Source of the DNA: an alpha proteobacterium IMCC14465
Lineage (GTDB): Bacteria; Pseudomonadota; Alphaproteobacteria; RS24
Length of the DNA stretch: 64,000 nucleotides
Assembly: GCA_000293845.2 (NCBI GenBank)
Contig: ALYF01000001.1
Location: forward strand, 1-64,000
Direction: 5' to 3'
Position numbers and translations under genes: made by a program. Every line of letters begins with the position of its first letter. Within the stretch, counting starts at the first letter, position 1. Under the pieces are notes generated by a model that saw nothing but the letters and a program-made list of their open reading frames with translations, was not told the DNA's origin and ran no database searches. This document shows, piece by piece, positions 1,494 to 48,056 of the stretch.

Positions 1494-1734
1494 TATTGTC
1501 CCCTCAAAACGTCCCACAATAGGTACAATACTGCGTTATGTTCATCAAGCCCTAGCCCATTATTCTCTAATCGGGCAAAATTATGAAACCTTGAGAAACC
1601 CTTGATGTGGGAACTTTCAGACAATATCGCGATGGACCTGCTAACTGGCTAAAATTGTCACACATTCAAAAAAGCTGAAGCAATCTCTGTACTCAAATAA
1701 TCCTCTTATGGTATATACATTTTGAGGTTTAGTT

Positions 1735-2442
1735 ATGAGTGAAAATGCGTCAATGGATGAAGAAGAGCTTGAGAATCTTCTTGAGAATTTCTTCTTCAAA
1801 AAAAATACAGAGTTAATGAGTTACAGTGACTCTTTCGAGTCGCGTATGCGAGACCGTTTCATTACCTATGTCAAAGAAATCCGCGAAGCTGGTACCTCTG
1901 AGGAAAACAATCAAATCCTCCGTAATGCTAAGATTATTGTCAAAAAGAAATCCCGTCGCGCTATGGACTTGGTGAATGTTCAAGCATTTATAGACCGGAT
2001 TGAACTGCGCTCTAGCGATGCTGAAGCACGGACTGCCGTTATTAAAATTCTTAAAGAAGAAAAGAATTTTAAGCAGATTGACGAAAATGTGGATGATGGC
2101 CTTATTACCGTTAAACTGCCCAAAATGGATTTAGAAAAAAGATTTGAACTGGCTGACTTTATCGAAAGCAAGTTCAAGAATTACCAGAAAAACGTCATGA
2201 TGGTGAAAAACCAATCCATGCAACAAATCAGAGCCGGTTTGCAAAATGAGTTTATCTTCGGTCCGGATGCGGCGAAAGCCTCCAAGGAAATCGAGAAAAT
2301 CATCGCTCACTATATTAAAACAGCAAAACTGATTTTCTTTGTTAAGCACAAAAGTATTCTTCGAAACCAGTTCAAGCTGACCGACGAAGATGACATTATT
2401 TTGGCGCGAAAAATGTCTACGGTCGCGCATATCCTTGATTAA
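1735..2442 (+). CDS. Divergent ribosome recycling factor-like protein, function unknown
   Basis: A 235-residue soluble, charged protein with no signal peptide. From about residue 100 on it lines up almost without gaps with the C-terminal half of the Frr encoded at 47502-48056: DGLITVKLPKMDLEKRFEL here against [20 protein letters not shown] in Frr, then the long helix (KASKEIEKIIAHYIK against [17 protein letters not shown]). The N-terminal ~95 residues are longer than in RRF and the beta-domain is not recognisable. The functionally important Arg pair of RRF (RNVRRDG) is replaced (MMVKNQS), so ordinary ribosome recycling is unlikely. This homology is my own alignment by eye. It precedes the cyclic-nucleotide-binding gene by 124 bp on the same strand and may be coexpressed. 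The start is an ATG after an AT-rich leader with a weak GAGGTTTAG site. Confidence 0.6.
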   Translation: MSENASMDEEELENLLENFFFKKNTELMSYSDSFESRMRDRFITYVKEIREAGTSEENNQILRNAKIIVKKKSRRAMDLVNVQAFIDRIELRSSDAEARTAVIKILKEEKNFKQIDENVDDGLITVKLPKMDLEKRFELADFIESKFKNYQKNVMMVKNQSMQQIRAGLQNEFIFGPDAAKASKEIEKIIAHYIKTAKLIFFVKHKSILRNQFKLTDEDDIILARKMSTVAHILD

Positions 2443-2566: not shown

Positions 2567-3922
2567 ATGCAAAGAACAGTAGACGACATTAAAGAAAGAG
2601 CGAAATATCTGCGTGATATGTTGGCTGAATATGCTGACGATGAATCCGTGTGGGCTGATAATGAAGAAGATATTGATTATTTCGCGGATGAGCCGGCACC
2701 CGAAATAGCGCCTGAGGTTTCTGAGGTTTCTGATGTTTATGAGGTTTCTAAAGTTATTGAAGAAAACCTCGCCCCCCAACAAGATGCAGACATATCAGAC
2801 CAAGTTGATGAAGCCCCAAAACAGGCAACACACCCGCTGGTCACAGGCTATCAAGAAGCAGAAGCACAAAAATCTCCAAACACACCGCCTCACGATAATC
2901 AAAACGTCGGAACTGATATTGAAAACAAAGACGAAGTTGAAAACAATAACGCAGTTGAAAACGAAGACGATATTGATAAGAGATTGGCCAATATTCTTGC
3001 CGAGGTACCAAGCCGCAATGATGATAATCAAAAATCGGCAGCACCCGACACAAAACAATCAGAAGCTAACAACCCCTCTGACCGTTTTGAAAAAATCGCA
3101 AAAGTTATTGCAGATAGTGAGAATTCCCCTTCCATACTGCCAACAGAAATGTCCAAATCGCCCGATGTCGACGAAAAGGGACGCAAGATTTTCAAATCGA
3201 AAGAAACTCTTAAAATTCTTAACGAGATGGGTCGGGAAATTGAAATCGGCAAACTTAATGACAGCATGATTAGCAAAGGCGCACCGCTTAGCGCCTGTTA
3301 CTGCATTCTTGAGGGCCGCGTTCGATATTACGATGCACATACCAATGAATATTTACTCGGTGAGGGCAGTATTATTGGCGCGGCTGAGGTGCTTGCCCCG
3401 AATAAAGTACATTTTGATTATCGTACAGAAGGTTATGTCAAAGTCGCCATTATTGACTTTGGACTTATCAAATCCGCGATTGATAATTTACGCCCCCTCA
3501 CCCGTGGCATCATTAAATTTACGCATGATCGGGTTATGGGGCAAAAAGAACGCTCCTCCCATCATCTCGTTGATGACCAGTTTATCAATCAGCTTGACCG
3601 TTATAACCACTTCACGGTGAAAGAAGGTGAAGTCCTTTTTGATATTGGTGATAAAAGCAACACGTTTTTCTATATTTCAAAAGGTTCGATGAATGTGGTT
3701 GATGAAAATGGCAAAGTCCTCGCCAATCTCGTATCTGGGCAGTCATTTGGCGAAATCGCCGCGCTCACAGGTGTGCCACGAACTGCCAGACTCGTTGCCA
3801 AAACTGATACGGATTTATTTGAAGTCCGGGCGAATGATGTGGCGCGTGAATTATCTTTCGAGCCCCCCATCATTAAGCTTATTGTGCGTGGCATTATTAA
3901 TCAGCTTATCATTAACAATTAG
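2567..3922 (+). CDS. Protein with two cyclic-nucleotide-binding domains and a long acidic N-terminus
   Basis: 451 residues, no signal peptide or membrane segment. Residues 1-~200 are acidic, low-complexity and probably disordered, with short EVSEVSDVYEVSKV repeats encoded by near-identical GAGGTTTCT units. Two cNMP-binding folds follow. The first (about 215-320) is degenerate, without the phosphate-binding-cassette arginine. The second (about 335-435) has a canonical cassette, GQSFGEIAALTGVPRTARLV near residue 393, with the FGE glutamate and the arginine that contact ribose and phosphate, so cAMP or cGMP binding is plausible. There is no helix-turn-helix after the second domain, so it is not a CRP/FNR regulator; it resembles PKA regulatory-subunit or scaffold architecture. 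The partner is unknown; the upstream RRF-like gene is a candidate. ATG start preceded by a purine-rich GAGTAGGTTGAG stretch. Confidence 0.8.
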   Translation: MQRTVDDIKERAKYLRDMLAEYADDESVWADNEEDIDYFADEPAPEIAPEVSEVSDVYEVSKVIEENLAPQQDADISDQVDEAPKQATHPLVTGYQEAEAQKSPNTPPHDNQNVGTDIENKDEVENNNAVENEDDIDKRLANILAEVPSRNDDNQKSAAPDTKQSEANNPSDRFEKIAKVIADSENSPSILPTEMSKSPDVDEKGRKIFKSKETLKILNEMGREIEIGKLNDSMISKGAPLSACYCILEGRVRYYDAHTNEYLLGEGSIIGAAEVLAPNKVHFDYRTEGYVKVAIIDFGLIKSAIDNLRPLTRGIIKFTHDRVMGQKERSSHHLVDDQFINQLDRYNHFTVKEGEVLFDIGDKSNTFFYISKGSMNVVDENGKVLANLVSGQSFGEIAALTGVPRTARLVAKTDTDLFEVRANDVARELSFEPPIIKLIVRGIINQLIINN

Positions 3923-47501: not shown

Positions 47502-48056
47502 TTAAACTTGCCTTATTTCAGCTTCTTTTTGCGAAAGGGCTTCATCAATCTTGGCAACATAATCATCAGTTAATTTTTGCACATCGTCAGAAAGTGCTTT
47601 TTGCTCATCCTGACTAATTTCGCCGTCTTTCTCGCCTTTCTTAAGCTGGTCCATGCCGTCGCGCCTGACATTACGGACAGCGACACGCCCCTGCTCTGCA
47701 TATTTACCGGCAATTTTGACGAGCTCCTCACGGCGTTCTTCATTAAGTTCAGGCAATGGCACACGAACCATCTGCCCGTCTGCCATCGGGTTGAGACCAA
47801 GACCGGCCTCACGTATGGCTTTTTCAACAAAGGAAACCGTCCCTTTATCCCAAACTTGAACAGACAAAAGTCTTGGTTCGGGCGCGGAAATTGTGCCGAC
47901 CTGAGACATTGGCATTTGCTGACCATAAGCCTCCACCATAATAGGCTCAAGAAGGCTGGTACTGGCACGGCCTGTTCTCAGACCTCCAAAATCACTTTTC
48001 AGGGTATTTAAAGCCCCCTCCATTCGTCTATTTAAATCGTCCATATCAGCAGACAT
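47502..48056 (-). CDS. frr: Ribosome recycling factor
   Basis: Releases ribosomes after termination together with EF-G. 184 residues, canonical length: three-helix bundle (1-30, 105-184) and beta domain (31-104). Seen: [34 protein letters not shown] and [16 protein letters not shown], with the functionally important arginines intact, followed by [20 protein letters not shown]. This is the bona fide copy; the protein at 1735-2442 is a divergent relative. It follows pyrH by 18 bp. Confidence 0.98.

Follow-up and report, generated by a model that had tools for sequence, protein, structure and literature searches.

A divergent family of ribosome recycling factor-like proteins associated with flagellar genes in marine Alphaproteobacteria

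What does a second protein resembling ribosome recycling factor (RRF) do in a genome that keeps a normal housekeeping copy, Frr? The question is raised by the gene at 1735–2442 of the window (the whole stretch of 64,000 nucleotides analyzed here), whose RRF-like product we call RRFL. To our knowledge, the translation factor RRF, which is nearly universal, has a known role in ribosome recycling alone. The features that bear on this question are the following:

1650–1662, plus strand: 13-bp block TAAAATTGTCACA 5′ of the RRFL gene, the same in five aligned congener sequences
1735–2442, plus strand: RRFL gene, 235 amino acids and a stop codon (ATG-start open reading frame; Pfam, AlphaFold2/Foldseek, purifying selection)
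1819–1887, plus strand: helix 1 of RRF domain I, residues 29–51, with conserved Tyr30 (DSSP on the model; conservation)
1915–2124, plus strand: equivalent of RRF domain II, residues 61–130 (predicted structure, structural alignment, conservation)
1954–1968, plus strand: new conserved Arg74/Arg75...Asp78 motif in the domain II equivalent (conservation)
2131–2370, plus strand: long helices 2 and 3 of RRF domain I, residues 133–170 and 176–212 (DSSP; conservation)
2206–2208, plus strand: Lys158, in place of E. coli Arg132 (alignment)
2371–2439, plus strand: C-terminal tail beyond RRF, residues 213–235, found in most RRFL proteins and not in Frr (alignment)
2567–3922, plus strand: 451-amino acid protein whose long N-terminal part is of low complexity, with two cyclic-nucleotide-binding-type (cNMP) domains (Pfam cNMP_binding E 1.1e-21, two stretches)
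47502–48056, minus strand: housekeeping Frr, in the order pyrH-frr-uppS (Pfam RRF 215.7 bits; flanking pyrH-like and uppS-like open reading frames)

Homology of RRFL to ribosome recycling factor

The open reading frame is a real gene under strong purifying selection: its orthologues are 87–93% identical in four congeners and 52–58% identical in a second genus, with dN/dS values of 0.025–0.035 between congeners. The 13-bp block TAAAATTGTCACA lies about 75 bp before the RRFL start and occurs once in the window; it is possibly a regulatory site.

The initial annotation proposed a divergent RRF-domain protein apart from Frr, whose C-terminal half aligns almost without gaps to the Frr of the same window at about one identical residue in five. 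We recovered this alignment (19 of 91 residues identical, 21%, ungapped). Its local score was matched by 1 of 2000 shuffles, and BLASTP aligned the two proteins at 22% identity over 76 ungapped residues with a non-significant E-value of 2.7. Since the pair alone is insufficient proof, we settled homology with profiles. The Pfam RRF model aligns to residues 54–209 of the window protein (E 2.2e-6) with a score of 28 bits, just below the curated cut-off of 29.7, which the relatives L009 (46.1 bits) and L006 (31.3 bits) pass. A profile made from an alignment of 44 RRF-like proteins finds RRF structures in the PDB with E-values down to 3.8e-14, and matches a set of 25 Frr proteins in hhalign over 175 columns (98.1%, E 1.2e-13). 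Because the profile alignment spans both RRF domains, we rejected a match restricted to the C-terminal half. This corrects the earlier description of the N-terminal half as different and longer: both domains align, and relative to RRF the protein carries additions of about 25 residues at its N-terminus and about 23 at its C-terminus.

Structure prediction agrees with the profiles. The AlphaFold2 model of the window protein (pLDDT 88.2) comprises a helix, a beta/alpha domain and two long helices, and all 25 of its Foldseek matches at E < 0.001 are RRF structures, the outcome that the initial annotation had named as support for its claim. VIA-align superimposes the model on Bacillus anthracis RRF (4gfq) with a Z-score of 14.1 and an r.m.s.d. 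of 3.0 over 184 residues; middling Z-scores may mislead for helical bundles, but this superposition extends over the beta domain and the sequence profiles concur. A second AlphaFold2 model, of a distant RRFL protein encoded in a flagellar gene cluster, gave a pLDDT of 89.9 and a Foldseek match to RRF at E 8.7e-13. RRFL therefore has both hallmarks of the RRF superfamily (PF01765), namely profile homology and, as predicted, a three-helix domain I with a beta/alpha domain II. Overall, profiles and models identify the window protein as a homologue of RRF over its full length, including both domains. A separate FliD-like protein with a weak RRF match (genome G000, C3:771886; 13.9 bits) was set aside as a chance similarity.

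Loss of ribosome-contact arginines in a separate clade

In a tree of 44 RRFL and 15 Frr proteins, all RRFL sequences fall on one side of a branch with 100/100 support and a length of about 2.8 changes per site. RRFL is thus a clade separate from housekeeping Frr and represents an old paralogue family; together with the profiles and the predicted structure, the tree bears out the original distinction between the two proteins. In the genomes examined with the Pfam model, RRFL carriers also keep a normal Frr, with, for instance, two RRF matches in G000 and three each in G035, G238 and G266.

We compared nine arginines that are invariant in 46 alphaproteobacterial Frr proteins with the corresponding positions of the 44 RRFL sequences. 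R28, R31, R129 and R132 are kept in none of the 44, and R133 in 2%. Position R31 is acidic in 70% of RRFL proteins and position R132 is lysine in 95%, confirming across the family that the Arg motif reported for the window protein has been replaced. RRFL has near-invariant residues of its own (Tyr30, Arg74, Asp78, Lys158 and Glu172 in window numbering), along with Ile174, which is common to Frr. The window protein scores 22.3 bits against the TIGR00496 equivalog model, short of its cut-off of 149.1. R132 is essential for ribosome recycling, and the structure of an R132G mutant (1ise) is among the Foldseek matches of the RRFL model. The loss of the ribosome-contact arginines strongly suggests, short of proof, that RRFL no longer recycles ribosomes.

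RRFL thus resembles Frr (PF01765, TIGR00496) in its full-length homology, its predicted two-domain fold and its conserved equivalents of Pro103 and Ile148, but differs in its low identity (17–19%), its new set of Tyr, Arg, Asp, Lys and Glu residues, its lost contact arginines, its additional C-terminal tail and its separate clade. By homology and predicted fold it belongs to the RRF superfamily; by the residues that define a ribosome recycling factor it is not one. The low identity could suggest that RRFL is what is left of an frr duplicate, still diverging and lacking a function of its own. The purifying selection on the gene already contradicts this idea, and both the new near-invariant residues, which hold over 44 sequences and three families, and the conserved synteny described below weigh further against it, making a relic extremely improbable.

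A different alternative is that RRFL still binds ribosomes, in hibernation, in rescue or in recycling alongside a special EF-G, and perhaps modulates the synthesis of flagellar proteins. The RRF fold and full-length homology would fit such a role, as would the near-invariant Lys158, which retains a positive charge at the R132 position, and the net charge of the RRFL core, which equals that of the Frr core. This reading is weakened because the contact arginines are gone: R28, R31, R129 and, in all but 2% of sequences, R133 are missing, with an acidic residue commonly replacing R31. The gene neighborhoods, to which we return below, also speak against it.

A search of 385 genomes of the class found RRFL, at scores of at least 196 bits, only in families f1, f9 and f109; the matches at or below about 72 bits were all housekeeping Frr and were discarded. 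No further RRFL was found in a sample of 398 genomes from the phylum. Family f1, to which the window belongs, is the PS1 clade according to the names of its relatives, and we take f109 to be SAR116, with its member G238 presumably Ca. Puniceispirillum marinum IMCC1322. As sampled, RRFL is therefore restricted to three families of marine Alphaproteobacteria: PS1, SAR116 and f9. The PS1 RRFL proteins fall inside a group shared with the SAR116 genera g232 and g234 (98/99), which makes lateral transfer or an old duplication likely. We rejected a phage origin, as our searches returned neither a viral relative nor a PHROG family.

Two further observations concern the distribution of the family. Some f9 genomes carry a second, more divergent RRFL copy away from flagellar genes (L045:9537–10145, L051:9701–10300 and L049:6–596), which in L045 and L051 lies near genes for cupredoxin-like and DnaJ-domain proteins. 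A contig titled Opitutia (L093, NZKY01000075.1) bears an RRF-like gene 89% identical to the PS1 protein, and is probably mis-binned.

Gene neighborhoods and co-occurrence with FlhA

In f9, RRFL is the last gene of an apparent operon that runs from the fliK-L-M-N-O-P-Q-R-flhB side through genes for two membrane proteins, one with a coiled coil (COIL) and one of PDZ/TM type (PDZTM), to RRFL, and faces motA-motB. The PDZ label is our reading of the sequence; Pfam gives a weak DUF2628 match for PDZTM, and neither COIL nor PDZTM has a Pfam family above cut-off. At locus L044, RRFL starts 9 bp past the PDZTM stop codon on the same strand. In f9, all first-copy loci that extend as far as these genes show the order motB-RRFL-PDZTM-COIL-flhB, which recurs in SAR116 genus g231 (L162, L163). 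In a further SAR116 genome, G238, a fusion of RRFL with a BLUF domain makes up a 415-amino acid protein (L047:8569–9813, minus strand; BLUF at residues 256–344, E 2.9e-24), encoded a few kb from flhA-flhF-flhG-fliA-flgF; an unfused copy in the same genome lies away from flagellar genes. RRFL thus sits in flagellar clusters in several lineages (the f9 genera, SAR116 g231 and the G238 fusion), the window's genome not being among them. There, motA-motB, PDZTM, COIL and flhB are together on contig C3, and RRFL is elsewhere, at the start of the window, with the cNMP protein and an acyl-CoA dehydrogenase as neighbors. No translation gene directly adjoins RRFL at the loci examined. Taken with the lost arginines, this linkage to motility rather than translation genes makes continued ribosome binding improbable, and argues against the ribosome-associated regulator, hibernation factor or rescue factor offered by the initial annotation; of the options listed there, a repurposed scaffold fits best.

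As observations in their own right, COIL and PDZTM lie between flhB and motB in three marine families (for example L218:2098–3648, about 791.6–793.1 kb on contig C3 of the window's genome, and L044:9580–11110), and a family of small secreted proteins (L046:9683–10141, L170:10054–10500, L172:10196–10630 and L215:19279–19797) adjoins RRFL in g188, g229 and g232 and lies within the flagellar cluster of g230.

At the level of genera, RRFL follows FlhA: across 29 genera, 18 have both, none has RRFL only, two have FlhA only and nine have neither (Fisher p 5.5e-6, a test that treats genera as independent samples, which they are not). The two FlhA-only genera are known from genomes 56–66% complete. 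Within f1, FlhA is found in g1 and g3, exactly the genera with RRFL, and in none of g2, g4, g5 and g6. The link is weaker when counted by genome, with 25/6/15/15 in SAR116 (p 0.012) and 5/3/2/18 in f1 (p 0.009), in the same order. Among the RRFL carriers in which we found no FlhA are G321 and G334 (SAR116, at least 90% complete) and G007 (f1); their congeners have it, and these cases are likely assembly gaps. Conversely, several FlhA-bearing SAR116 genomes yielded no RRFL, including G135, G316 and G317, which are 96–99% complete. Since RRFL went undetected in nearly complete flagellated genomes, it is dispensable for the flagellum, an accessory rather than one of the core parts.

The pairing with a cyclic-nucleotide-binding protein noted at the outset is correct for the window, where the neighbor occupies 2567–3922. 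This protein has two domains of the kind found in CRP/FNR-type proteins (PF00027), the second with an FGE...PRTA-like cassette, but unlike the CRP/FNR type it has no detected DNA-binding domain. The expected co-occurrence in other genomes stood in part: the cNMP gene adjoins RRFL in five genomes of the window's genus, g1, and is missing from the rest of the family. Among RRFL proteins, the closest outside relative is that of SAR116 g232. Two cNMP-domain genes are located some 0.7–1.5 kb from its gene on the other strand, and their likeness to the window protein is generic, at the level of the domain. We therefore rejected the cNMP protein as a general companion of RRFL. In view of the g232 genes the pairing may nevertheless be meaningful, and given the BLUF fusion elsewhere, a sensor partner for RRFL is an attractive but unproven idea.

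The variety of these contexts raises the alternative that RRFL is a general signaling scaffold, serving motility in some lineages and other outputs elsewhere, with a partial flagellar link. The second f9 copies fit such a role, as do the RRFL copies of SAR116 g230 that adjoin Hsp20-like and alanine-dehydrogenase-like genes, the cNMP neighbor in the window, the cNMP pair near the g232 gene and the BLUF fusion. Against it, no RRFL lineage lacks FlhA at the genus level, and we consider a scaffold of such general use rather unlikely.

A proposed role beside the flagellar stator

From sequence and genomic context, we somewhat favor a model in which RRFL is an RRF fold exapted as a motility-linked, non-recycling protein. 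RRFL would no longer split ribosomes and would instead serve the flagellum, as a cytoplasmic adaptor near the stator. A sensor would set the three-helix rod and the swivelling domain II; in one SAR116 genome this would be the blue-light-sensing BLUF domain, and in the window perhaps the neighboring cNMP-binding protein. RRFL could then act on stator-adjacent membrane proteins (MotB, PDZTM and COIL) to tune motor output or assembly. More tentatively, and with appreciable doubt, RRFL might constitute a distinct class of flagellar signal transduction, in which blue light or cyclic nucleotides change the geometry of the two domains and thereby gate a stator/PDZ/coiled-coil complex of marine alphaproteobacteria.

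Two known systems offer comparisons. The YcgR/PilZ flagellar brake is a stator-interacting regulator, and the mode proposed for RRFL would resemble it in using a small, cytoplasmic, signal-responsive protein near MotAB; RRFL differs in its unrelated fold and lack of a PilZ domain, and its own interaction with the stator is a proposal. The G238 protein carries a clear BLUF domain like that of BLUF photoreceptors (PF04940). Most RRFL proteins differ from these in having none: the Pfam scan of the window protein found RRF only, and BLUF was seen only in the G238 member.

A literature search of partial coverage found no report of an RRF-fold family outside translation, of an RRF-BLUF fusion or of such an RRF paralogue family. 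We know of no RRF-fold family that works outside translation, and RRFL, if our model is true, would be the first. For annotation, the scores of many RRFL proteins lie just about at the Pfam RRF threshold, and such proteins could be mislabeled as a second ribosome recycling factor. If the model holds, the RRFL clade would be an example of a core translation factor put to new use, with its fold kept, its contact arginines lost, invariant residues of its own and a place in flagellar operons. Moreover, in the SAR116 and PS1 clades, whose bacteria are abundant in the ocean, RRFL may reveal a switch of motility controlled by light or nucleotides.
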